Shown: one piece after another, positions 1,479-57,163 of the stretch
How the letters are laid out: each line of letters opens with the position of its first letter
How positions within the stretch are numbered: the stretch's first letter is position 1
DNA from: Gammaproteobacteria bacterium
GTDB taxonomy: Bacteria; Pseudomonadota; Gammaproteobacteria; Methylococcales; Methylomonadaceae
NCBI GenBank assembly: GCA_018830325.1
Contig: JAHJSQ010000109.1
Span: forward strand, 1 to 64,000
DNA length: 64,000 nucleotides
Reading direction: 5' to 3'
Made by a program: the position numbers and the translations under genes
Notes under the pieces: model-generated
What the model was told of the DNA's origin: nothing
Seen by the model: only the letters and a program-made list of their open reading frames with translations
Databases searched by the model: none

Positions 1479-2753
1479 TTAGTCATGCGTTTTATGAATA
1501 GGCAACCAGATCTTAAAACTGGCGCCTTCTCCGATACGACTCGTGACGTCGATTCTGCCATGATGAGCGCGGACGATATTATTCGCGGTCGATAAGCCGA
1601 GGCCGATGCCTTTGCCAATGGGGCGCGTCGTGAAAAACGGTTCAAATAATCTATGCAGATGGTCGGGATTAATCCCGTGGCCGTTGTCTGCAATTTCCAC
1701 CCAGATCTGTTTGCCGTCGGTTCCGGTTCGTATGATGATTTCACCGGATTCGTCGACGGCTTGCCAGGCATTGGTCAGCAAACTCAAAAAAACTTGATTC
1801 ATGAGTTGAGGAATGCATTCGATCTCGGGCGTGTCGCCATATTCTTTGCGAATACGGCATTGGATATTTTGGCTGCAGACGAACACTTTTAAGGTCGTCT
1901 CCAAGCTCAGCTTGATATCGCATTGCTGCCAGTCTTGGCCGTTGTCATCGGTAAATTGATTAAAGGCACGGACGATATTTCGCACTCGGGTTAAACCTTC
2001 TTTGGATTCGCAAATTAGATCGGCGATATCCTCGCGCAAAAAATTCCAGTCTTTTTGCTGCTTCAAATCTTGTAATTTCGAGATACAGTCAGGTTGGTGC
2101 CGGCATTTAGAGAGTTGATTATCGTATTGGTCGATCAAGTCGAATATTTCGAGGGCATATTCTTGAAAGGAATTGAGGTTGGAAAAAATAAACCCCAACG
2201 GATTATTAATTTCGTGTGCAATGCCGGCCGCTAATTGACCGATCGCGGCGAGTTTTTCCGATTGCATCAGTTCGGATTGAATTATTTGATTTTCTTGCAA
2301 GCGTTTTTGTAGTTCCGCTTCGAGATGAATATTTTGATTTTGTAAGCGCTCGCGCGCTTTTTTTAGTTCTATCTGTGAGTTGACCCTAACCGATAATATC
2401 GATAAGTTGCAGGGTTTATAGAGATAATCCGCCGCACCCAATGAAAAACCGAACGTTTCGTCTAGTCCGGAGGTCAAGGCCGTCACGAAAATGACCGGAA
2501 TGTCTTGTGTCTTCGGACTAGCTTTTAACACTTTAATGACTTCGTAACCGTCCATGCCGGGCATCATAATATCCAACAAGATTAGGTCCAAGGAGTTATT
2601 ATTCGCTATTTCCAAGGCTTTAGCGCCGGATGTTGCGACCAAGACCGCATAGTCCGCCATCAAATATTGTCCGAAAACCGAAAGATTGACGCTTTCGTCG
2701 TCGACTATCAGAATGCTGGGGCGCTTATCAATGCTCGTGGTATCGTTTGACAT
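1479..2753 (-). CDS. Response-regulator receiver / histidine kinase hybrid
   Basis: Cytoplasmic signalling protein of 424 residues. An N-terminal receiver domain (about residues 11-130, phospho-acceptor Asp in LILLDIMMPGMDG, near residue 61) is followed by a coiled-coil (about 131-165) and a histidine kinase: the dimerisation box GIAHEINNPLGF with His near residue 180, then the ATPase motifs LLTNAWQAV, DNGHGI and GIGLGLS. This REC-first layout is typical of kinases working downstream of another kinase. No membrane segment is present. I chose the ATG at 2753, which has GAGG a few bases upstream; a TTG one codon earlier is less likely. It reads away from the corrinoid operon across a ~200-bp gap and may share its regulation; that link is inferred from position only. 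Confidence 0.9.
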   Translation of the reverse strand: MSNDTTSIDKRPSILIVDDESVNLSVFGQYLMADYAVLVATSGAKALEIANNNSLDLILLDIMMPGMDGYEVIKVLKASPKTQDIPVIFVTALTSGLDETFGFSLGAADYLYKPCNLSILSVRVNSQIELKKARERLQNQNIHLEAELQKRLQENQIIQSELMQSEKLAAIGQLAAGIAHEINNPLGFIFSNLNSFQEYALEIFDLIDQYDNQLSKCRHQPDCISKLQDLKQQKDWNFLREDIADLICESKEGLTRVRNIVRAFNQFTDDNGQDWQQCDIKLSLETTLKVFVCSQNIQCRIRKEYGDTPEIECIPQLMNQVFLSLLTNAWQAVDESGEIIIRTGTDGKQIWVEIADNGHGINPDHLHRLFEPFFTTRPIGKGIGLGLSTANNIVRAHHGRIDVTSRIGEGASFKIWLPIHKTHD

Positions 2754-2756
2754 CAA

Positions 2757-2926
2757 GACCTCAAAATTTATTTATCATCATCGTAGATCAAAATTCGGCA
2801 TCGGCGTCCTATCGTCCTATCGGGCGAGTGACCGCACTCTCCGCCTGCCGCGCACTTTCATTTGCCGAGACGATCGATTGCCAGACCTTCATGAATATTA
2901 CTATAGTAATATGAGTTCCACCCTCC
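2757..2926. repeat. Intergenic remnants of families A and B
   Basis: The divergent intergenic region contains a family B-like end (CGTAGATCAAAATTCGGC near 2783) and a minus-orientation family A end (CGGGCGAGTGACCGCACTCTC near 2820-2842). Both are partial. I saw no cobalamin riboswitch here. Promoters for the kinase and the corrinoid operon must lie here but cannot be placed confidently. Confidence 0.5.
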
Positions 2927-2959
2927 GTGATAGTGTCCGGAATTGCGGCTAAAAGACCG

Positions 2960-4597
2960 ATGCCAAAAAATTTAGAATCCATCGAAGAACAAAAACATCA
3001 CCGGTTACGCGTCAACACGGATAATTGCGGTTTAGAGCTTTACCTGTCCGATTCGGTATCGGTTCGAGAAGCGCTCGATCACACCGAAATTCGCGTTCGT
3101 GCGGCCTGTGGCGGGCTGGGTACTTGCGGCGCTTGTTTGATACAAGTTATTTCTGGTCGGTTCAATCTTCCGACTCCGGTGGAACGGCAGAAATTGTTGC
3201 CGGATCAATTGGAGCAGGGTTATCGGCTCGCCTGCCAATTAAGGCTTCTGAGTGACGGTGAAGCGTATCTTGCTCATCCTGCCCCGGCGTCGCAATGGAG
3301 GAGTCCGGATCGATACCAGTGGCCTACGGTAGTGTTTTCGAAAGTTACCGACGAGGTTCGGAAACCGTATGGCATTGCGGTCGATCTAGGAACGACTCAT
3401 ATTCGTTTGTCTATTTGGCATCGCCCCACCGCTCGGTTCATCGGTTGCCGGGTAGGCATCAATCCTCAAGTGGCGCATGGCGCCGATGTCTTGACTCGTT
3501 TGGATGCCCAAAGATTGGACGTTCATGCCTCGCGGGACTTGATGACCGAAGGGCGTAAGGCTATCTTGGATGGCATTCGAGATATTTTGAGTCGAGATTT
3601 TGGGGAAGTGGCTCATGTCCTTGCCGAAACCGGACAGATTATCATCGTCGGAAACACCGTTATGCTGATGCTGATTGGTGGCGGTAACGATAGCGATGAT
3701 TTGTATCGGCTTGAAAATTGGCATAGCCCTATCGAGTGCAAAATCGATGATGTGGCCTCGTGGCGCCATGATTGGCGTATGCCTCACGCGGATATCTCGA
3801 TCGTTCAGCCATTGGCCGGTTTTGTCGGTTCGGATTTATTGGCCGATCTTTTGTCCACGGGAATTACCGAGCAATCTAGTCCGATGCTGTTGGCGGATTT
3901 GGGAACCAATACTGAAATTGCTCTGTGGGACGGTACTACGGTATGGGTGACATCGGTTCCGGGTGGGCCGGCGTTTGAAGGGGTCGGGATGCGCAATGGC
4001 TTGGCGGCTGAAACGGGCGCCATATATCGTGTACGCGATGACGGCGAGCGTTGGCTGATGACTACGATCGACGAGCAGCCGATTCGAGGATATTGTGCCA
4101 GCGGCTTCATCGATGCGATTGCGGTGATGTTGGACAAGCAAATACTCAAACCCTCCGGTCGCTTTGCCCAATCATTGCAGTCGAGCGGAACAGGTTATCG
4201 GCTTGATGCCGGCAGTGCTCGGTCGGCGATTTTTGGTGGCGATATCGATATTTTTCAACGAGCCAAGGCTTCGACCGCTGCAGCCATGATGCAATTACTC
4301 GGGTTTGCCGATTTGAAACCAAGCGATTTACAGGCTGTTTGGATTTGCGGCAGTCTAGGGCAACATCTGGATTTGCACAATGCTGTGCGTGTCGGCTTGT
4401 TGCCCCGTTTACCGGTCGACAGATTCAAACGTCTTGCGAATGCGAGTCTGGCCGGGTGCGAGCAGTTGTTGCTAGACCAAAACGCAAATGCTCGTTTAAA
4501 TGCGATCATAAACAAGACAAAATCGATCAATTTAGGCGGAATCAGTAGCTATGAAGAAAGTTTTATCGAACATTTGCGCTTGCAACCGATGGCATAA
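2960..4597 (+). CDS. 2Fe-2S ferredoxin/ASKHA protein, corrinoid activator (RACE, DUF4445)
   Basis: Predicted reductive activator of corrinoid proteins: in the family, ATP hydrolysis and a 2Fe-2S cluster return oxidised Co(II) corrinoid to active Co(I). The N-terminal ferredoxin domain has the ligand pattern C-x5-C-x2-C (ACGGLGTCGAC) with a fourth Cys in RLACQ. The C-terminal ASKHA (DUF4445) region contains the nucleotide-binding motifs AVDLGTTHIRLS, LADLGTNTEIALWDG and ICGSLGQH. From the ATG at 2960 it is 545 residues; a GTG at 2927 in the same frame adds 11. It is the first gene of a compact run, ending 12 bases before the corrinoid protein, its expected partner. A gene symbol (such as ramA or ramQ) would overstate what is known. 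Confidence 0.85.
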   Translation: MPKNLESIEEQKHHRLRVNTDNCGLELYLSDSVSVREALDHTEIRVRAACGGLGTCGACLIQVISGRFNLPTPVERQKLLPDQLEQGYRLACQLRLLSDGEAYLAHPAPASQWRSPDRYQWPTVVFSKVTDEVRKPYGIAVDLGTTHIRLSIWHRPTARFIGCRVGINPQVAHGADVLTRLDAQRLDVHASRDLMTEGRKAILDGIRDILSRDFGEVAHVLAETGQIIIVGNTVMLMLIGGGNDSDDLYRLENWHSPIECKIDDVASWRHDWRMPHADISIVQPLAGFVGSDLLADLLSTGITEQSSPMLLADLGTNTEIALWDGTTVWVTSVPGGPAFEGVGMRNGLAAETGAIYRVRDDGERWLMTTIDEQPIRGYCASGFIDAIAVMLDKQILKPSGRFAQSLQSSGTGYRLDAGSARSAIFGGDIDIFQRAKASTAAAMMQLLGFADLKPSDLQAVWICGSLGQHLDLHNAVRVGLLPRLPVDRFKRLANASLAGCEQLLLDQNANARLNAIINKTKSINLGGISSYEESFIEHLRLQPMA

Positions 4598-4609
4598 GGG
4601 GACCGGAGT

Positions 4610-5275
4610 ATGTTGAGTCGTTACGTGCAGGCATACAACGAAGCGGTTTTTGAAACCGATAAGCAGGCCGCCTTAGCCGTGGTTAATGGGGCTCTACAAG
4701 ATGGTTATAGCCCGGAAGATATTGTGTTCAATTTGGTCATTCCTGCCGTGGAAGCCATGATGGCGCGCATCGAACAGGATCCCGATTCCAATTTGGCTCA
4801 ACATTTCATGACGGCACAGATCGCCTCCGAAGTGACCGAGCGAATGCTGGAAAAATTCGCCAGCGCACCGGAAACGATCGGTAAAGTGGTGATCGGAGCC
4901 GCCTATGGCGATTTGCACTCGCTCGGTAAACGTATCGTGATAGGTTGTCTTAAATCGTTGATGGTCGATGTTATCGACTTAGGCATCAATATCAGCGCCG
5001 AACAGTTTGTCGACGGGGCAGTTGATAACGACGCACAAGTCATCGCGATTTCGGCCATGATGGTGCATACCGCGATCGGCGAGAATGGTAGTATCAAGGT
5101 TCGATCCTTATTAAAGGAGAGAGGCTTGGAAAATAAAATCAAGCTGGCGGTCGGAGGCGCGCCCTATCGATTCGATCCGGAATTATATAAAAAAGTGGGG
5201 GCCGATGTGTGGGCTCCTGATGGTGTGACGGCGGCAAAAGTTATTATCCAATTGATCAAAGAGGTGAGTCCATGA
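4610..5275 (+). CDS. Corrinoid (B12-binding) methyl-carrier protein
   Basis: A 221-residue protein of the MtaC/MtbC/MttC type. The N-terminal four-helix cap (about residues 1-88) is followed by a Rossmann-like B12 domain (about 90-215). The lower-ligand motif DxHxxG is intact as DLHSLG (residues 101-106), and the supporting ISAMM and VGGAP motifs are present. These proteins carry a methyl group on cobalt between two methyltransferases. The activator gene is immediately upstream. The next gene, a URO-D methyltransferase, overlaps its stop by 4 bases, suggesting translational coupling. Good ribosome binding site (GGGGACCGGAG region just upstream of ATG). The methyl donor is unknown because no MT1 gene is nearby. 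Confidence 0.92.
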   Translation: MLSRYVQAYNEAVFETDKQAALAVVNGALQDGYSPEDIVFNLVIPAVEAMMARIEQDPDSNLAQHFMTAQIASEVTERMLEKFASAPETIGKVVIGAAYGDLHSLGKRIVIGCLKSLMVDVIDLGINISAEQFVDGAVDNDAQVIAISAMMVHTAIGENGSIKVRSLLKERGLENKIKLAVGGAPYRFDPELYKKVGADVWAPDGVTAAKVIIQLIKEVSP

Positions 5276-6300
5276 CACCTTTAGAAATTTTAGCGGCGGC
5301 TAAATACGGCGCCCCGGCACCGCGTATTCCGATCTTTTGCAATTTGTTCGATCAAGGTGCGCGAGAACTCGATATGCGCGCTCAAGATTATTTTGCACGG
5401 GGCGATTGTGTTGCCGAAGCGCAGTTGCAAATGTTAAAGCGTTTCGGTCACGATAATGTGTGGAGTTTGCACTATGTCGGCAAAGAAGCCGAATTGTTGG
5501 GCTGTAAAAAAATATTGTTTGCCGATGACGGCGTGCCTAATGTGGAAGATTTCGTGATCAAGAATTGGGACGATATTGCCAAATTTGAAGTCCCGACCGA
5601 TATCACTCAACAGCAAGCCTGGCAAGCCATTGCTGATTGTTTATCGATTTTACGCACCGAAATTGGGCAGACGCATGCCATTTGCGCTTATGTGACGGCT
5701 TCGACGACCTTGCCGGCCCTGTTGATGGGCATGGATAACTGGATGGAGCTATTTTTGACCGGGCCGGCCGATCTGCGCGATGAATTGTTGCGCAAATGCG
5801 TTGATTTTGTTCATCAGCACATTAACGCGCTACGTGCGGCCGGAGCCAATGTTTTGATGTATTCGACGCCGTTCGGTTCGCCCTATTTTGTCGGTAACAA
5901 AATCATCGAAGAAATCGTATTGCCTTGGATGAAACTCGACTTACTACCCGGCGGTGTTGCCGATGTCGTATATTATTGCGGCATGGCGCCATTTAACGGC
6001 GTTATCGATTTGGCGTTTGACCAACTGGGCATCACGTCGCATTACATCAGTCCATTGGCTGACTTGGCCGAAGCCAAGCGCTTGATCGATACCCGCGGCT
6101 TGACATGTGGTGTGATTGACGACATCAAAATGATTCATTGGACTGAGGCGGAAATAAAATCCGAAGTCAAACGCATCATCGAGATAGGCAAGCAGGGCGG
6201 ACATTTTTTATTCGGCAATGGCGTTATGCCTCTGGCGGTGCCGGAGGCCAATATCAAGGCGATGATAACGGCAGCTTTTGACTACGGGCAGTTGACATGA
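5272..6300 (+). CDS. URO-D family corrinoid methyltransferase (MtaA/CmuA-like)
   Basis: A 342-residue (beta/alpha)8 protein of the uroporphyrinogen decarboxylase superfamily. It is unlikely to be HemE because it sits between a corrinoid protein and DUF1638, and the HemE N-terminal arginine motif is not seen. MtaA/CmuA relatives move methyl groups between a corrinoid protein and a thiol or pterin, using a zinc site of the form H-x-C ... C. Here the first part reads YYCG (no His), and the C-terminal site reads GNGVMPLAVPEANI where a Cys would be expected, so the zinc site looks incomplete. It overlaps the genes on both sides by 4 bases. The acceptor could be a pterin or none; coenzyme M is not expected in this group. 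Confidence 0.82.
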   Translation: MTPLEILAAAKYGAPAPRIPIFCNLFDQGARELDMRAQDYFARGDCVAEAQLQMLKRFGHDNVWSLHYVGKEAELLGCKKILFADDGVPNVEDFVIKNWDDIAKFEVPTDITQQQAWQAIADCLSILRTEIGQTHAICAYVTASTTLPALLMGMDNWMELFLTGPADLRDELLRKCVDFVHQHINALRAAGANVLMYSTPFGSPYFVGNKIIEEIVLPWMKLDLLPGGVADVVYYCGMAPFNGVIDLAFDQLGITSHYISPLADLAEAKRLIDTRGLTCGVIDDIKMIHWTEAEIKSEVKRIIEIGKQGGHFLFGNGVMPLAVPEANIKAMITAAFDYGQLT

Positions 6301-6920
6301 AAAAATTTGTCCTGCATCAGGAGCATACAGAACCCTTGACGATGGTCGGTTGCGGTATTTTGCGCAAAGAAGTCGACTATTTGATCCGGACTCATGGCTG
6401 GAATGTGCAAACGCATTTTTTGGATTCGGCTCTGCACAATTACCTGAATCGTTTATCTAAAGAACTTAACGAAGCCTTGCAAGAGCATGAGGCGAAAGGC
6501 GAAAAGACCTTTGTTTTTTACGGCAGTTGCCATCCGTTGATGGACAACTATTTGGACGAACATCGCACTTGCCGCACCCGGGGTCAAAATTGCATCGTTA
6601 TGTTATTGGGTTATGAGCTTTTCATGCAGGAGCTTGAAAAGGGAGCGTACTTTCTAGTTGAGGATTGGGCCTTGACTTGGCAACCGATGATCACGGCTTG
6701 TTTCGGTAACAATATTGCCGTGGTGCGCGAAATTTTTCACAGCAGCCATAAGTATATGCTCGCGCTCAAAACGCCTTGCAGCGCCGATTTTTCCGAAGCC
6801 GCTCAAACCGCGGCCGATTTTGTGGATTTACCTTTACACTGGCTCGAAGTGGATCTTGAACACTTAAAGCAAGTGTTGTTCGAGGCTATTAAGCAGCGAT
6901 TAGATCAAGCAACGACTTGA
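6297..6920 (+). CDS. DUF1638 protein associated with corrinoid methyltransfer
   Basis: A 207-residue soluble protein matching the DUF1638 pattern: an N-terminal VGCGILRKEVDYLI segment, the LHNYLNRLSKELNEAL helix, FYGSCHP and the Cys-containing RGQNCIVMLLGYELF region. Several Cys and His residues in these motifs could bind metal or cobalamin, but the function is unknown. The family is commonly found next to corrinoid proteins and MtaA-like methyltransferases, as here. The start overlaps the upstream stop (ATGA), so it is translationally coupled. The kinase gene begins 6 bases after its stop. Confidence 0.8.
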   Translation: MKKFVLHQEHTEPLTMVGCGILRKEVDYLIRTHGWNVQTHFLDSALHNYLNRLSKELNEALQEHEAKGEKTFVFYGSCHPLMDNYLDEHRTCRTRGQNCIVMLLGYELFMQELEKGAYFLVEDWALTWQPMITACFGNNIAVVREIFHSSHKYMLALKTPCSADFSEAAQTAADFVDLPLHWLEVDLEHLKQVLFEAIKQRLDQATT

Positions 6921-6926
6921 ACGGGC

Positions 6927-8903
6927 ATGATGAATTCAAACGAACAAGATTTGCAAAGACGTATCGAGCACTTGGAGCGCCGTGTCCGTAAGCTATCCGA
7001 AGAAAAAGCCAATCTGCATCTTGTCCTGCATATGGTGGAATTGCTTAATCCGATTGCCGGTATCGATTACTTCCTAGATAGTATGATAGCGGCACTTTGC
7101 GGTAGTTTAGGCGGTACCAATACAGAGATTTATTATCTGGACGAAGGCGAGATTCACTATGTCAACTTATTCGGCGAAAAACGGATTGTCGGTGAGATTG
7201 AAGATTCGTTGGTGGCGGAGGTCTTTGCCACTCGCCATTTTGTCGAACAAAATACCGATTTGAACCATACCTTGCTCAAAGATAATGTTGCTGCGGTGGC
7301 CTGCACATGGGTGATGCCTTTGACGATTGGCGACCAAATGTTGGGTGTCGTCAAAATGTCCGATTTGCTGGGATCGGCACAGATGCGCAACTATTTGGCA
7401 CCGTTTTTTTCTCATATCGCGCTGATTTTGAATAATAAAATACAGACTCGTAAAGCGGAAGCCGCTAATCGTGCCAAAAGTAGTTTTTTAGCGACGATGT
7501 CTCACGAAATTCGGACGCCATTGAACGGGATTCTGGGTATGGCTCAATTATTAGCCAAGCGGGAATGCAACGATACTAAACGCCTAGAATGCGCTCGGAC
7601 GATTCTGACGTCCGGCAACAATTTGCTTGCTTTGCTCAATGATATTTTAGATTTGTCTAAAATCGAGGCGAATCGCTTGGAGCTAAATTTTTTAGCCGTT
7701 CAACCGCAAAGGATTTTAGACGAAATTATGACGCTTTTTTCCGGTGCTGCCCAGCAAAAAGGCTTGAGAATTCATGCTGCCTGGGTAGATCGTGAGGTAA
7801 AGGCTTATCAAGTTGACTCGCTCAGAGTTAAGCAAATGTTATCCAATCTGGTCAGCAATGCGATTAAGTTTACCGATCGCGGTTCTATCCGGATTGAGGC
7901 GCGTTCAATCCTTGATGAGTCGAGGAATTGTTTGTTGGAGTTTTCGGTCAGCGATACCGGTATCGGTATTCCAAAGGACAAACAGCGCGAGTTATTTAAA
8001 CCGTTTACCCAGGTCGATAGCAGTTCGAATCGACGCTATGTGGGGACTGGGCTGGGATTGTCACTGGTATCGCGTTTTGCCGAGTTGATGCAAGGCAAAG
8101 CAGGGTTTGAGAGCGATGAAGGGCAAGGTTCGCGTTTTTGGTTTCGGATACCTACCCGCGTCGATAATGAGATCGATAACAGCGCTTTACCATCTAATAT
8201 CGATGAGTCATCCCAATTATCGAATCCAAATCCTAGGCTACATCGCGTGTTATTGATTGACAGTGATTGTGGACATGGCGCTAATTTGTCTGCACAACTA
8301 AAGGCACGATCTATCGAAGTGATTGGTGTGGATCAGGATGATCAAATTTCGGACTTTATCGACGAGGATCTAGAATTTGATGCAATCATTATTGAACTTA
8401 GTTTGGAAAATAGATCTTTTGGCCGACTTGCGAGAAAGATTCGTGTCTTGGAATCGGCCCATCATCTTCCTCGCGCATTCATCATCGGTATTAGCGATCA
8501 ACAGCAAAGCGAAGGGTTAGAGCCTGAATTTAAACAGGATATCGATGAACGACTCGTTCGGCCTTTTACGATAGAACATTTAGTGAGCGTTATCGAAAGC
8601 CATATACATCTGTCCGCGGCTCAGCAGCAAAAGACAGTAATTTGTAACGAAGATCGCTTGTTTTTCAAGAGTTGTGAGGGTATTAACGGGATTCTCGATG
8701 GTCTCGAAGGCCAGTTGGAAAAAAATATGTTTACTGCCGTTGAACAATTCAGCATGCTGCAAGCAAAATTGGAGGGTAGTTTGATTGCTTCGCATTTTGA
8801 CACGATTGGTAAACTGATCAACGATATGAATTTTGAGGAGGCTCATCTACAGCTAAAATTATTGCGTGAGCAATTCTCCGAGACCAAGGGAAACGCATTG
8901 TGA
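6927..8903 (+). CDS. GAF-containing hybrid histidine kinase
   Basis: A soluble 658-residue sensor kinase. Short coiled-coil (residues 6-30), GAF-like sensory domain (about 30-172), dimerisation/phosphoacceptor box MSHEIRTPLNGILGM (His 193), ATPase domain with LVSNAIKF, DTGIGI and GTGLGLSLV. A C-terminal receiver-like domain (about 435-550) has IDSD at the acidic pocket, but the expected phospho-Asp position falls in AIIIELSLEN, where Glu replaces Asp. The last ~90 residues are helical and could be HPt-like, but no HPt His motif is evident. It lies 6 bases after the DUF1638 gene and overlaps the c-di-GMP gene, so the GAF domain probably senses something tied to the corrinoid proteins (inference). 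A second ATG at 6930 is equally possible. Confidence 0.9.
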   Translation: MMNSNEQDLQRRIEHLERRVRKLSEEKANLHLVLHMVELLNPIAGIDYFLDSMIAALCGSLGGTNTEIYYLDEGEIHYVNLFGEKRIVGEIEDSLVAEVFATRHFVEQNTDLNHTLLKDNVAAVACTWVMPLTIGDQMLGVVKMSDLLGSAQMRNYLAPFFSHIALILNNKIQTRKAEAANRAKSSFLATMSHEIRTPLNGILGMAQLLAKRECNDTKRLECARTILTSGNNLLALLNDILDLSKIEANRLELNFLAVQPQRILDEIMTLFSGAAQQKGLRIHAAWVDREVKAYQVDSLRVKQMLSNLVSNAIKFTDRGSIRIEARSILDESRNCLLEFSVSDTGIGIPKDKQRELFKPFTQVDSSSNRRYVGTGLGLSLVSRFAELMQGKAGFESDEGQGSRFWFRIPTRVDNEIDNSALPSNIDESSQLSNPNPRLHRVLLIDSDCGHGANLSAQLKARSIEVIGVDQDDQISDFIDEDLEFDAIIIELSLENRSFGRLARKIRVLESAHHLPRAFIIGISDQQQSEGLEPEFKQDIDERLVRPFTIEHLVSVIESHIHLSAAQQQKTVICNEDRLFFKSCEGINGILDGLEGQLEKNMFTAVEQFSMLQAKLEGSLIASHFDTIGKLINDMNFEEAHLQLKLLREQFSETKGNAL

Positions 8904-10987
8904 GCATTGAACGCCAGAAGATCCTGATAATCGATGATACACCGGCTAATATCACGCTATTGGGGATGGCATTACAGGATCAATATGAGATCCAAATAGC
9001 GACTAGCGGTAAAAAAGGCCTGGTTTTGGCGAGCGAGACTCCGCCGGATTTGGTTTTACTCGATATCATGATGCCCGATCTCGATGGCTATGAAACCTGC
9101 CGCTTATTTAAATCTGATGCTAAATTACAGCATATACCGATTATTTTCGTGACGGCGTTGAGTGAAATTGAAGCTGAAATTCAGGGTTTATCGCTGGGTG
9201 CGGCAGATTTTTTGATCAAGCCTTTTAATCTCCAGATTGCTCAGCTTAGGGTGCGCAATTTGTTGGAAACCGAACGGATGCGGCAGGCATTGCGTCAAAA
9301 GGAAGAAGATCAACGTCTTGCCGCGACTGTCTTTGCCTATAGTCATGACGGCATCGTGATTACCGATGTTGAAAACCGTATTATCAATGTCAATAACGCC
9401 TTTAGCCGTATTACCGGTTATGGGCTTGACGAAATCAAAGGCGAAAATCCACGTATACTCAAATCGGGGCGGCAGGATACCGAATTCTACCGCAACATGT
9501 GGCAAGCCTTGTTATCGGAAGGTCACTGGAGCGGCGAAATTTGGAATCGCAACAAGCAGGGTGAAATTTACGCGGCCTTGACGTCTATTGCAGTGGTCAG
9601 GGACGATCAAGACAGCATTCATCATTTCATCGGTTCGTTTATCGATATTACTCCGATCAAAGAGCATCAGCACGCATTGGAACGTATCGCGCATTTCGAT
9701 CCCTTGACCGGGGTTCCGAACCGCTTTTTATTATCGGATCGATTGGGACAAGCCATCGTTCATGCGCGGCGATCGCGAAAATTAATGGCGGTGTGTTATC
9801 TGGATCTGGATGAATTTAAACCGATCAATGATCGATTCGGTCATCAAGTCGGCGATCAATTATTGATAGAAATTACTCGGCGCATCAAGGCTTGTTTACG
9901 CGAAGGAGATACGCTGGCACGCATCGGCGGCGATGAGTTTGTGCTGTTGCTGTTGGATATCAATGACAGCGGCGAATGTAAGACGATATTACGAAGAATT
10001 CTTAAAGCTGTTTCGGCAAAAATGTTGCTGGCGAATCAAACAGTGTGGGTATCGTTGAGCTTGGGTTTTACTCTGTATCCGGATGATTCAGCCGATTCTG
10101 AAACATTGATTCGCCATGCCGATCAAGCGATGTATCAAGCCAAGCAACAAGGTAAGAATCGATTTCAACGGTTCGACATGCTTCAAGAAAAACAAACCTG
10201 TGAGCAAGGAAAGCAATTTGCCCGTATCGAAAGCGCATTAGCCGATAATGAATTTGTGTTGTATTTTCAACCGAAGATCAATCTTCGCGATGGAACTATT
10301 CTGGGTGTTGAAGCCTTGATTCGCTGGCAACATCCCACTCGTGGATTACTGAGCCCTGCCGAGTTTTTACCGATGATTCAAGGCAGCCAGTTGGAGATTA
10401 ATATCGGCCAATGGGTGTTGTCGACGGCCTTAAGTTATTGGCATCAATGGAAAAAAGCAGGAATCGATATTGCCATTAGTATTAATGTTGCCCCCGGGGC
10501 ATTATTGAATTCTGATTTTGTTGAAAATTTAGCCGCTAAGCTTGACGAAAACCCCGAGTTGCAGCCAGGCTGTCTTGAACTGGAAATACGGGAAACCGGG
10601 ACATCGGACGATTACGAAAGTGCCGCTAAGGTGATGAAGGCTTGCCAAGCGTTGGGTGTCGTATTTGCGCTTGATGATTTTGGAACAGGTTATTCGTCGT
10701 TGAGTTATTTGAAAACCTTGCCGGCGAAAACGTTAAAAATCGATCGGTCGTTTGTGTTGGGTATGCTGGAAGACGAGGGGGATTTGGCGATAGTTAAAGG
10801 GATTATTGATCTCGCCGCGATATTCAAATTACAAGTCATCTCGGAAGGCGTCGAGACAACCGAACACTTATCGAAATTACTTGAGTTAGGTTGTGAAAAT
10901 GGTCAAGGTTATGCCATTGCGAAACCCATGACAGAGGAAGCCTTGTTCAACTGGCTAAACGAATGGCAGTTGGAACAAAAGAATTAA
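8900..10987 (+). CDS. REC-PAS-GGDEF-EAL c-di-GMP turnover protein
   Basis: A 695-residue response regulator controlling cyclic di-GMP. Receiver domain (about 5-125; Asp 55 in LVLLDIMMPD), coiled linker, PAS domain (about 140-255), diguanylate cyclase domain with intact GGDEF (ARIGGDEFVLLL) preceded by an RxxD inhibitory site (REGD), and an EAL phosphodiesterase domain with VEALIRW, EIRETG, DDFGTGYSSL, KIDRSFV and SEGVET. Both catalytic domains look intact, so the net direction may be set by phosphorylation. GTG start overlapping the kinase stop by 4 bases, so the kinase is its likely phosphodonor. It is the last gene of the run, followed by repeats. Confidence 0.93.
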   Translation: MSIERQKILIIDDTPANITLLGMALQDQYEIQIATSGKKGLVLASETPPDLVLLDIMMPDLDGYETCRLFKSDAKLQHIPIIFVTALSEIEAEIQGLSLGAADFLIKPFNLQIAQLRVRNLLETERMRQALRQKEEDQRLAATVFAYSHDGIVITDVENRIINVNNAFSRITGYGLDEIKGENPRILKSGRQDTEFYRNMWQALLSEGHWSGEIWNRNKQGEIYAALTSIAVVRDDQDSIHHFIGSFIDITPIKEHQHALERIAHFDPLTGVPNRFLLSDRLGQAIVHARRSRKLMAVCYLDLDEFKPINDRFGHQVGDQLLIEITRRIKACLREGDTLARIGGDEFVLLLLDINDSGECKTILRRILKAVSAKMLLANQTVWVSLSLGFTLYPDDSADSETLIRHADQAMYQAKQQGKNRFQRFDMLQEKQTCEQGKQFARIESALADNEFVLYFQPKINLRDGTILGVEALIRWQHPTRGLLSPAEFLPMIQGSQLEINIGQWVLSTALSYWHQWKKAGIDIAISINVAPGALLNSDFVENLAAKLDENPELQPGCLELEIRETGTSDDYESAAKVMKACQALGVVFALDDFGTGYSSLSYLKTLPAKTLKIDRSFVLGMLEDEGDLAIVKGIIDLAAIFKLQVISEGVETTEHLSKLLELGCENGQGYAIAKPMTEEALFNWLNEWQLEQKN

Positions 10988-19184: not shown

Positions 19185-19733
19185 TTAAATTTTTCCGTCA
19201 AGGCCCATTTGGAAATATTTGTGAGTGATTTTATCTTGATTTTCCAACAGCCAATCGATATCCGGGGTATTGGTCATGGCCTTATGGATGGCTTGTGCCA
19301 TGGCTTTGCGGTGGATGTCGAAAAGTATTTGATGGTCCAGATTATCGTCGGTCGCCACACTAGGGTTGAGCCATACCGAGCAGATGATTCCCAAATCGTT
19401 CGCTTTTTCTTTCGGAATATCTCCCGCGCGAACTGCATCAAGTACACCATTAGCGATAGCGGCCTGAACGGTACCCATTAATATGTTGGTGTAGCGGCTA
19501 TTGTTAACAGTGACCTTGCTGACCATTAAAGTCACGGGGCGGACTTGAATATCGGTATTCAAAATTGCGAAAACCCGGCTATGACCTTTGACTTGGTCCC
19601 CTGTCAGAGTGGCGAGGGCCGTACCGACCGGTCCGTCCAGTTCGCCGATGACGATTTCCGGTTCCGCCGCGGTTCCGGGAGGACCGCCCGCTACCAATGC
19701 CTCACCGGTACGCATGATAATTCTTTCGCTCAT
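19185..19733 (-). CDS. Formaldehyde-activating enzyme (Fae) paralogue, divergent
   Basis: A 182-residue cytoplasmic protein of the Fae family, which condenses formaldehyde with tetrahydromethanopterin. Family motifs: GEALV near residue 10, VRPVTLMVSKVTVNN, and GTVQAAIANGVLDAVRAGDIPKEKANDLGIICSVWL. In characterised Fae proteins the GEALV segment is followed by V-A-H-I-D-L, with His as the proposed catalyst. Here the matching stretch reads AAEPEIVIG, placing Glu 24 at the His position, so catalysis may be lost or changed. It also has a C-terminal extension (ITHKYFQMGLDGKI). Strong ribosome site AAGGAG (19740-19745), 6 bases before ATG. It is divergent from a radical SAM gene. It is likely a Fae-like paralogue rather than the main enzyme. 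Confidence 0.88.
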   Translation of the reverse strand: MSERIIMRTGEALVAGGPPGTAAEPEIVIGELDGPVGTALATLTGDQVKGHSRVFAILNTDIQVRPVTLMVSKVTVNNSRYTNILMGTVQAAIANGVLDAVRAGDIPKEKANDLGIICSVWLNPSVATDDNLDHQILFDIHRKAMAQAIHKAMTNTPDIDWLLENQDKITHKYFQMGLDGKI

Positions 19734-55625: not shown

Positions 55626-56186
55626 ATGAAAAAATTCACGCTCTTAGTTTCAGCTTTGTTTTTGTTCGCAGCCGGCGCCCATGCTCATGGCCCGGTGCGT
55701 CAGAAAGTAAAGCAGGATATCACCATTAATGCACCGGCTGATAAAGTCTGGGCGTTGATTAAAAATTTCGACGATATGTCATGGTTGCCGGCAGTGGCCA
55801 GCACAACCGGTGAGGGCGGCAACAAAAAAGGCGCAACCCGTGTTTTAACGCTAAAAGACGGGGGCACGATTAAAGAAGAATTGAAAAAACATGACGATAA
55901 AAAGATGAGTTATGCTTATAAAATCAAAGATATGAGTGCTGCAAAAACCATAACGCATTCCGGCCAAGACGAAGAGGTGCCGGTATTGCCGGTCAGTAAC
56001 TATGCTGCCAGCATCGACGTCAAGGCCAAAGGCGATAAAACGCAGGTCATCTGGAAAGCCGGTTACTACCGCGCATACATGAACAACAACCCGCCGGCTG
56101 AAATGAACGAAGAAGCGGCCAACACTGCCGTTAACGCTATTTTTAAAGAAGGTTTGGAAAACCTGAAAGCCTTAGCCGAAAAATAA
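55626..56186 (+). CDS. mxaD: MxaD-like periplasmic SRPBCC protein
   Basis: A 186-residue exported protein: signal peptide (about 1-20, ending AHA), then an SRPBCC/START-like fold (about 25-184). HGPVRQKVKQDITINAPADKVWALIKNFDDMSWLPAV matches MxaD, which assists electron transfer between methanol dehydrogenase and its cytochrome in Methylobacterium. Here it is separated from any mxa cluster. Followed 2 bases later by the beta-propeller gene, which starts inside the hairpin-bearing region. Confidence 0.85.
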   Translation: MKKFTLLVSALFLFAAGAHAHGPVRQKVKQDITINAPADKVWALIKNFDDMSWLPAVASTTGEGGNKKGATRVLTLKDGGTIKEELKKHDDKKMSYAYKIKDMSAAKTITHSGQDEEVPVLPVSNYAASIDVKAKGDKTQVIWKAGYYRAYMNNNPPAEMNEEAANTAVNAIFKEGLENLKALAEK

Positions 56187-56188
56187 GG

Positions 56189-57163
56189 TTGTTTGCAGTG
56201 TTTTTAACGCATGTCAAAAACGCGGCGGCTTTGGCCGCCGCGTTTTTTTTATCCCTGCCATTGGCCGCCGCCGCGCCACGCGCCTATATCACCAATCAAC
56301 TCGGCGATAGCGTATCGGTTATTGACACTGCGTCGAATACGGTTATTGAAACGATCGCGGTACCCGGCAAACCGGCAGGGATCGCAGTTGCGCCGGACGG
56401 TAGCCGTGTCTATGTCACGACGCCGGAATCGGGCGAACTAGCCGTGATCGATACTGCCAACAACAAGCTGATCGCTCAGGTTCCGGTCAGTGCGGGCGCA
56501 TTGGGCATCACGACGGACCGGACCGGCAAGACGATCTACATCGCCGACTGGTACAAAAACATCGTATCGGTAGTCGATGCCGAAAGCCTGCAAGTTAAGA
56601 AAACGATACCGGTTGGACAATCGCCGTCCGGTCTTGCGGTAAGCCCCGACAACCGATGGCTCTATGTCGCGAACCGGCTCGATAATTCGGTGTCGCAAAT
56701 CGATCTGGAAACTTTGCGGATTCGCAATACGACTAAGGTTGGTGAGCACCCGTTCGGTTTAACGATCGATAGCCGAGGCGAGAAGATCTATGTCGCGAAC
56801 GTCGAAAGTGACGATGTGACGGTCTTGAGTCGCGATCATCTGAAAAGAATCGGCATTGTCAAGGTCAAGATGCTGCCTTATGCCGCTTCGCTGGCGCAAA
56901 ACGATAGCTTGTTGTTCGTAACCAATCAGGACGACGGTACCGTATCGGTGATCGATACTGAAACGTTGCAAGAAAAGGCCGTAATCAGCGTTGGCGATAA
57001 ACCTGAAGGTATAGACACACTGGCAGGAGGTCGCTTCGTCTATGTTGCTAATTGGTTCGATGACAATGTGTCGGTCATCGATGCGTTAAGTCTTGAAGTG
57101 ATCGATACGATCGAAACGGGCGGCGGCAGCCGGGCCTTCGGTCAATTTATCGTCGGCGATTGA
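56189..57163 (+). CDS. Exported YVTN-family beta-propeller protein
   Basis: A 324-residue secreted protein of seven repeated ~43-residue blades, each with the YVAN/YITN-type motif (YITNQLGDSVSVID, YVTTPESGELAVID, YIADWYKNIVSVVD, YVANRLDNSVSQID, YVANVESDDVTVL, FVTNQDDGTVSVID, YVANWFDDNVSVID). Signal peptide about 1-28 (NAAALAAAFFLSLPLAAAA). Such propellers often act in PQQ alcohol oxidation or surface processes. TTG start at 56189; a GTG at 56198 is an alternative. The signal-peptide codons hold a perfect intrinsic terminator (56221-56250). Confidence 0.85.
   Translation: MFAVFLTHVKNAAALAAAFFLSLPLAAAAPRAYITNQLGDSVSVIDTASNTVIETIAVPGKPAGIAVAPDGSRVYVTTPESGELAVIDTANNKLIAQVPVSAGALGITTDRTGKTIYIADWYKNIVSVVDAESLQVKKTIPVGQSPSGLAVSPDNRWLYVANRLDNSVSQIDLETLRIRNTTKVGEHPFGLTIDSRGEKIYVANVESDDVTVLSRDHLKRIGIVKVKMLPYAASLAQNDSLLFVTNQDDGTVSVIDTETLQEKAVISVGDKPEGIDTLAGGRFVYVANWFDDNVSVIDALSLEVIDTIETGGGSRAFGQFIVGD
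56216..56250 (+). terminator. Intrinsic terminator inside the signal-peptide codons
   Basis: CGCGGCGGC (56221-56229) pairs perfectly with GCCGCCGCG (56234-56242) across a 4-base TTTG loop, preceded by five A's and followed by eight T's. It lies 30 bases after the mxaD-like stop and overlaps codons for the next protein's signal peptide. It should end most mxaD transcripts and leave some readthrough. Confidence 0.85.

Follow-up and report, generated by a model that had tools for sequence, protein, structure and literature searches.

Gene content of the operon

The DNA analysed here (the window) was a whole stretch of 64,000 nucleotides from contig JAHJSQ010000109.1 of a Methylomonadaceae genome assembly (GCA_018830325.1; G000 in our genome sets, 4.80 Mb). 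At positions 2927-10987 it carried six open reading frames (ORFs) on the plus strand, encoding a 2Fe-2S/ASKHA activase, a corrinoid protein, a URO-D protein, a DUF1638 protein, a histidine kinase with an N-terminal domain that we call SENS, and a REC-PAS-GGDEF-EAL response regulator (Table 1). We consider it probable that the first four products, which form a corrinoid methyl-transfer module, serve as the sensor of the SENS kinase with cyclic di-GMP (c-di-GMP) as the predicted output. A preliminary description of the locus had reported a tight run of six genes, and the ORF list together with Pfam confirmed the strand, the families stated beforehand and the overlaps or short gaps. Namely, the start-to-stop spacings were 12 bp between the activase and corrinoid genes, -4 bp on either side of the URO-D gene, 6 bp before the kinase gene and -4 bp before the last gene. 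The first gene had two possible starts (GTG at 2927 or ATG at 2960).

Table 1. Features of the operon and its upstream flank in the window
Feature	Position	Strand	Basis
2Fe-2S/ASKHA reductive activase, RACo type	2927..4597	+	PF14574, PF17651, PF00111 over cut-off
Corrinoid protein, MtbC/MtgC type	4610..5275	+	PF02310 and PF02607 over cut-off
URO-D protein, distinct clade (YYC...G[TN]), predicted substrate-side component	5272..6300	+	PF01208, 126 bits
DUF1638 protein, predicted to couple the corrinoid module to the kinase	6297..6920	+	PF07796, 110.5 bits
Histidine kinase: SENS (GAF-type) input, HisKA, HATPase, apparently degenerate receiver	6927..8903	+	Pfam, SENS profile, structure model
SENS domain, predicted GAF-type receptor tied to the module	6963..7445	+	209 bits with profile A3
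REC-PAS-GGDEF-EAL response regulator, predicted c-di-GMP output	8900..10987	+	Pfam Response_reg, PAS, GGDEF, EAL
Sigma-70-like promoter candidate TTGCCA-18-TATAGT, before the operon	2878..2907	+	consensus scan, 10/12 positions
Divergent soluble REC-histidine kinase, possible accessory	1479..2756	-	Response_reg, HATPase_c (Pfam)

The first protein matched RACo_C_ter (178.5 bits), Raco_middle and Fer2 above their cut-offs as well as the RACo structure 3zyy (E 3.5e-50), and the four Fe-S cysteines of the ASKHA family were retained in 60-61 of 62 rows. PF14574 and PF17651 together with the 2Fe-2S cysteines placed it in the RACo type. Its assignment as RamA or AcsV was rejected, with TIGR04270 at 81.4 bits (cut-off 500) and NF040756 at 216.1 bits (cut-off 800). 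The corrinoid protein scored 72.2 bits with the B12-binding family PF02310 (cut-off 32.1) and had the intact DLHSLG motif that had been reported for it; the D, H and G of DxHxxG were present in 90/90 rows. It fell short of TIGR02370 (94.2 bits, cut-off 215.3).

The URO-D protein had previously been labelled MtaA, and this label did not survive. MtaA, MtbA and CmuA with their partners MtaC and MtbC resemble the present system in fold family and in the pairing of a URO-D protein with a B12 protein. Here, in contrast, the MtaA and CmuA profiles were missed (NF040654, 72 bits against a cut-off of 400; TIGR01463, 69.5 bits against 235.4) and the His-x-Cys...Cys pattern became Tyr-x-Cys...Thr/Asn. 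The zinc ligands of MtaA, which we take to be H237, C239 and C316, fit the printed alignment with its offset. At the aligned positions we found Tyr in 87, Cys in 80 and Thr or Asn in 86 of 88 rows, and Cys at the third site in none; the sole row without Tyr at the first position was a sister copy in locus L069. Two of the three ligands were thus substituted in all 87 clade rows. Because the cut-offs were missed and two of three ligands were replaced, the protein is, on these sequence grounds, not an MtaA-type second methyltransferase, and it may itself be a substrate-side enzyme. In the URO-D tree, whose bootstrap was not fully settled and whose MtaA branch was very long, it belonged to a clade of 34 rows (support 100/98) apart from HemE and MtaA, termed here the sensor clade. 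Mean column identity of the protein was 66% over 53 rows from many phyla. The window genome had two URO-D genes, the operon copy and a HemE-like one.

The three cysteines C19, C78 and C99 of the DUF1638 protein were invariant in 81/81 rows, and the family was present in 17 of 121 relatives.

The preliminary description had also spoken of a hybrid kinase with a GAF domain. The N-terminal 187 residues of the kinase in the window matched no Pfam family, and 56 SENS relatives gave weak GAF matches in at most 12 rows for any single Pfam model. On the other hand, the AlphaFold model of SENS was GAF-like (predicted local distance difference test score, pLDDT, 90.4) and its top Foldseek matches were GAF domains (best E 1.4e-06), supporting a GAF-type input to which Pfam was blind. 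The hybrid part of the claim was weakened, since the C-terminal receiver matched only iREC (20.9 bits, below the cut-off of 27). By our reading of the sequence, a Glu presumably stands at the place where the acceptor Asp of this receiver is expected, and the receiver looks degenerate. The other two-component and c-di-GMP motifs were intact, namely the kinase H-box SHEIRTPL, the receiver motif LLDIMMP with its Asp in the last protein, GGDEF and EALIRW, and the HATPase was present.

The invariant SENS residues were L32, G62, G63, D93 and P131. Neither Cys nor His occurred in the invariant and near-invariant columns of the 56 rows, so that SENS lacked the mark of a heme or thiol GAF domain of the RdmS/MsmS type. 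RdmS and MsmS of Methanosarcina acetivorans are likewise sensor kinases linked to corrinoid methyltransferase genes, and a heme-binding GAF domain is named in a reference title in the available part of that paper (PMC11619418). Heme or cysteine sensing was proposed for them there, whereas SENS would have the corrinoid module as its partner.

Recurrence of the module, its receptor domain and a sister clade

The recurrence of the locus was followed in 128 relatives found by a contig scan with URO-D peptide patterns alone, without kinase information, of which the best 80 loci were kept. Families were assigned with our own hidden Markov models (HMMs), and SENS was counted within 1.5 kb downstream. 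The counts include many near-copies from Methylomonas and several records shared with the genome sets below, and most records were metagenome-assembled genomes (MAGs) whose phylum labels may err. The corrinoid gene adjoined the URO-D gene in 79/80 loci (in the exception, L107, URO-D was split over two frames), DUF1638 adjoined in 72, SENS followed in 73 and ASKHA lay somewhere in the fetched stretch in 57. The complete six-gene order, for which a recurrence check had been proposed, was found in 15 of the 80 loci (L038, L039, L041-L049, L051-L053 and L074), including L038 of the cultured methanotroph Methylotuvimicrobium buryatense 5G. Since the same set appeared although the kinase played no part in choosing the loci, its recurrence exceeds what chance would predict.

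The outputs carried by the 73 SENS proteins were a histidine kinase in 58, GGDEF-EAL in two and GGDEF in one; twelve had no catalytic domain by our HMMs, some of them from contig ends and some not (L104). Among the seven loci without SENS in range, L067, L075 and L115 were cut by contig ends, with less than 0.8 kb of sequence downstream, and L094 had SENS kinases further than 1.5 kb on. The corrinoid and URO-D proteins were fused in one frame in L069, L077 and L116, and DUF1638, SENS and kinase formed a single frame in L112. Such fusions suggest contact between the products along the gene order. Moreover, a tblastn search with the window genes in 16 loci from DUF1638-carrying relatives placed corrinoid-module genes beside signalling genes in all loci except L021, with SENS in 13 (absent from L021, L028 and L030). 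L021, a 4.6-kb contig, was a metabolic contrast with a corrinoid protein, a Pterin_bind methyltransferase, DUF1638 and ASKHA. L030 was a second module copy in genome G067 with ASKHA, corrinoid and DUF1638 genes and no URO-D gene, beside other hybrid kinases. Loci L085 and L091, titled Alphaproteobacteria and Bacteroidales, had the module amid the same neighbouring genes, whose lengths were equal, which may reflect mis-binning or recent transfer.

The tie between SENS and the URO-D clade was measured in two draws of genomes, with thresholds of E 1e-60 for the URO-D profile and E 1e-12 for SENS. In the class draw (276 genomes), URO-D matched in nine, four over 500 bits and five at 258-292 bits, and SENS occurred in exactly the four high scorers (4/4 versus 0/272). 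In the phylum draw (397 genomes), 13 had a URO-D match, and for nine of these a score of 565-620 bits placed the gene in the high-scoring clade. SENS was found in exactly the same nine (9/9 versus 0/388), each time at most 0.7 kb from the URO-D gene. The 500-bit split was set after the scores were seen and lies in a gap from 292 to 534 bits, and G000 belonged to both draws. Identical sets would arise by chance with a probability of about 2e-18 (phylum) and 4e-9 (class) if the genomes were independent, which they are not. Because SENS and the URO-D clade sit in identical genome sets, SENS is a predicted receptor tied to the module.

The lower-scoring URO-D genes formed a separate clade of 12 rows (support 99/99) beside the sensor clade. 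The active-site pattern was YYC...G[TN] in the sensor clade versus HxASG...DNHGEIP in most sister rows. These sister genes paired with a corrinoid gene, mostly with signalling genes as well, and DxHxxG was retained in all eight sister corrinoid rows listed. ASKHA was absent from the five class-draw genomes that carried the sister clade alone. The sister DUF1638 was fused N-terminally to a kinase in L126, L128, L163 and L166 (above the Pfam cut-off) and in L123 and L124 (below it); in L164 its fusion partner was GGDEF and in L125 PAS, while it was unfused in L127 and, weakly, in L069. N-terminal to kinase and GGDEF catalytic domains is the place of an input domain, which makes it very improbable that control runs in the reverse direction, from the kinase and the c-di-GMP enzyme to the methyltransferase as their effector, as the close, codirectional genes might also allow. 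In L123 (7825-14005), two corrinoid/URO-D pairs stood in tandem ahead of a single kinase whose N-terminal DUF1638 match was weak, as though two ligands acted on the same kinase.

On the Azoarcus plasmid pAZKH, the sister module lay between fhc genes and a pyrroloquinoline quinone (PQQ) methanol dehydrogenase (MDH) gene set, within an MDH/fae/fhc island. Its URO-D protein was 65-71% identical to several sister rows, and its DUF1638-kinase match reached 22.5 bits, below the cut-off. The position of this module in a methanol-oxidation island hints at sensing of one-carbon (C1) compounds. A more distant set, B12-URO-D-ASKHA-GAF-GGDEF, was found on the plasmid pTs417 of Candidatus Thiodictyon (L181, 6332-11323).

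Proposed sensory role and alternative explanations

Since one particular receptor domain accompanied the module in many bacterial phyla, we read the module as a sensor rather than a feeding pathway, and it is very likely a dedicated sensory input. The sensory use suggested in the preliminary description thereby gained strong comparative support from the order across phyla, the co-occurrence with SENS and the fusions. In contrast, the predicted c-di-GMP output is local, as is the six-gene order, and the majority of loci have other histidine kinases at their end.

The sensed item would most likely be a methyl donor that binds to the URO-D protein, with the state of the corrinoid read through DUF1638 and SENS. 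In this mechanism, the ASKHA protein would reduce the corrinoid to Co(I) with ATP and its 2Fe-2S centre, and the URO-D protein, as the substrate-side enzyme, would bind a specific small methyl donor and pass the methyl group to Co(I). What SENS would read via DUF1638 is the corrinoid protein in its methyl-Co(III) form, or the ratio of this form to Co(I)/Co(II). SENS would alter autophosphorylation at the kinase H-box, and the phosphate would pass to the intact receiver of the REC-PAS-GGDEF-EAL protein and change the c-di-GMP level. The operon encoded no enzyme dedicated to accepting the methyl group, and the module would therefore indicate an equilibrium or a slow turnover instead of carrying flux.

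With slightly less than even confidence, we propose a wider receptor class in which an enzyme's methyl transfer is the sensory event. URO-D proteins would use a specific C1 compound to methylate cob(I)amide, and the methylated corrinoid protein would be read through DUF1638, the signal reaching kinases or cyclases via a GAF domain (sensor clade) or a DUF1638 fusion (sister clade). The pockets YYC...GTG and HxASG...DNHGEIP would sense different methyl compounds, and the Azoarcus copy of the sister clade would point to a C1 substrate.

The activase would also suit a redox or oxygen sensor, which we regard as unlikely. The kinase would then read the oxidation state of cobalt, which the ATP-driven activase would hold at Co(I) and oxygen would convert to Co(II), without methyl transfer, and the URO-D protein would only cap the corrinoid. 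Exactly one ASKHA gene was present in each of 17 genomes carrying the module (carriers), inside or adjoining a module copy, and record titles of carriers included Mariprofundus, Gallionellaceae, Magnetococcales, Rhodocyclaceae and methanotrophs, which live at oxic-anoxic interfaces. However, Geobacter, Anaerolineae and Anammoxibacter were also among the titles. A bound substrate fits better than a pure redox sensor with the strong conservation of the URO-D protein and with pockets that differ between the clades, as they would if each clade had its own ligand.

The absence of an MT1 enzyme for a methylated substrate, noted in the preliminary description, held for MttB and MtaB, which were found in none of the 17 carriers with a positive Methanosarcina control in a search that left out other MT1 families such as the methylamine enzymes MtmB and MtbB. 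The claim needs rewording, since the URO-D protein may take the substrate-side role. No recognisable methyltransferase was seen among the neighbour families present in at least three of the 80 loci (names by our own reading). These absences speak against a metabolic methyltransferase, either catabolic or a split methionine synthase, with regulators adjacent by happenstance. Such a system was made quite doubtful also by the tie of the kinase input domain itself to the module and by the constancy of the module while outputs varied. Moreover, the window genome had six B12-binding matches, four over cut-off, including the operon gene and a 1229-aa frame that looks like a full-length MetH by its length. 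In favour of metabolism, DUF1638 and a RamA-like protein were required for B12-dependent methionine synthesis in Phaeobacter according to the accessible part of PMC5764234, and the relative with L021 had such a set with a pterin-binding methyltransferase.

The MtgBCD and split methionine synthase systems of Phaeobacter and Ruegeria (PMC5764234, PMC12478193, as far as these were available) are similar in having a corrinoid protein, a RACo/RamA-like activase and DUF1638 together in aerobes. They differ in having an MttB-type MtgB and/or pterin and homocysteine subunits, and they make methionine or demethylate betaine. In the window, by contrast, the corrinoid gene is next to a URO-D gene, with the SENS kinase gene following, and no pterin-binding or MttB-type subunit was encoded among the six operon genes, a search that did not extend to pterin-binding proteins in trans.

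Least probable of all was a B12 photoreceptor, in which light would act on the corrinoid-carbon bond and the kinase would read the outcome. Methyl-Co bonds are light-labile. The sections available of PMC10979010 describe photocobilins, known light receptors that combine a B12-binding domain with a diguanylate cyclase and in which the former controls a signalling output, as would be the case here. However, these receptors are single-chain proteins that respond to light with adenosylcobalamin, and the photocobilin cyclase was activated with adenosylcobalamin and not with methylcobalamin; the present module consists of several proteins, one of them a predicted Co(I) activase. We saw no place for a reductive activase and a URO-D enzyme in a photocycle, and a Co(I) cycle accounts for the activase better than a light receptor does.

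Several observations weigh against a methyl-transfer sensor tied to SENS. G119 (L028), which was in neither hit list, had all four module genes (ASKHA, corrinoid, URO-D, DUF1638) preceded by genes for a hybrid kinase and a REC protein, with no SENS domain, suggesting a different coupling to a kinase. In G219 the SENS kinase was on another contig than the module, and a second SENS kinase in G308 had no URO-D gene next to it. Kinases or cyclases without a SENS match even at E 10 (default filters) accompanied the module in L097, L098 and L116. The SENS profile was built from module-linked domains, so that unlike GAF domains elsewhere would be missed. ASKHA was lacking from the fetched stretch in 23/80 loci, and in a wider set of 50 carriers, 45 had at least one ASKHA and five had no match, the latter also counting against a redox sensor. 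Adjacent DUF1638 was missing from eight of the 80 loci, one of them cut by a contig end. MttB was present in eight of the 50 wider carriers, and a search with four of these proteins as probes found no relative encoded in 111 fetched loci. The fused sister DUF1638 matches were weak (22.6-36.6 bits against a cut-off of 27), and sister locus L165 had PAS kinases and no DUF1638 at E 1e-4. The methanol island was a single case, with homologues of its MDH, fae, YncE or SRPBCC genes in few of 114 stretches scanned. Finally, DUF1638 and RACo-like proteins serve true metabolism elsewhere, as in the split methionine synthase (available part of PMC5764234).

If the sensory reading is true, an entire B12 methyl-transfer system of a kind known from metabolism would be a signal receptor in ten phyla (by record labels, mostly of MAGs), and DUF1638, a family of no known role, would be the coupler of the receptor. 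Methyl-donor sensing would join the known inputs of c-di-GMP signalling, and methanotrophs and redox-gradient bacteria would be able to signal the presence of methylated compounds through kinases and c-di-GMP. We found no description of the module in the literature searched, including the available parts of PMC5764234 and PMC11619418, and a term search of a review of c-di-GMP inputs (PMC8846402) returned no word beginning with corrin, cobalamin or B12. A direct test is feasible in a cultured methanotroph because M. buryatense 5G has the same six genes.

Neighbouring genes and minor observations

The promoter candidate upstream of the operon was weak, since promoter-like sites in the scanned region did not exceed those in shuffled sequences (10 found versus 13.4 expected). 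The divergent REC-histidine kinase was a conserved neighbour in 10/80 loci, and a codirectional one was present in four more. Beside the divergent gene in the Methylomonas loci L039, L042 and L049 (at about 1-6 kb), there were genes that by sequence reading were CheR-, CheD-, STAS-, CheA- and MCP-like. In L023 (5191-7276; genome G003) the REC-PAS-GGDEF-EAL gene was in two frames, a frameshift or an assembly error. Elsewhere in the window, at 19185-19733 and 55626-57163, we found homologues of fae (42%), SRPBCC (43%) and YncE (35%) of the Azoarcus island.

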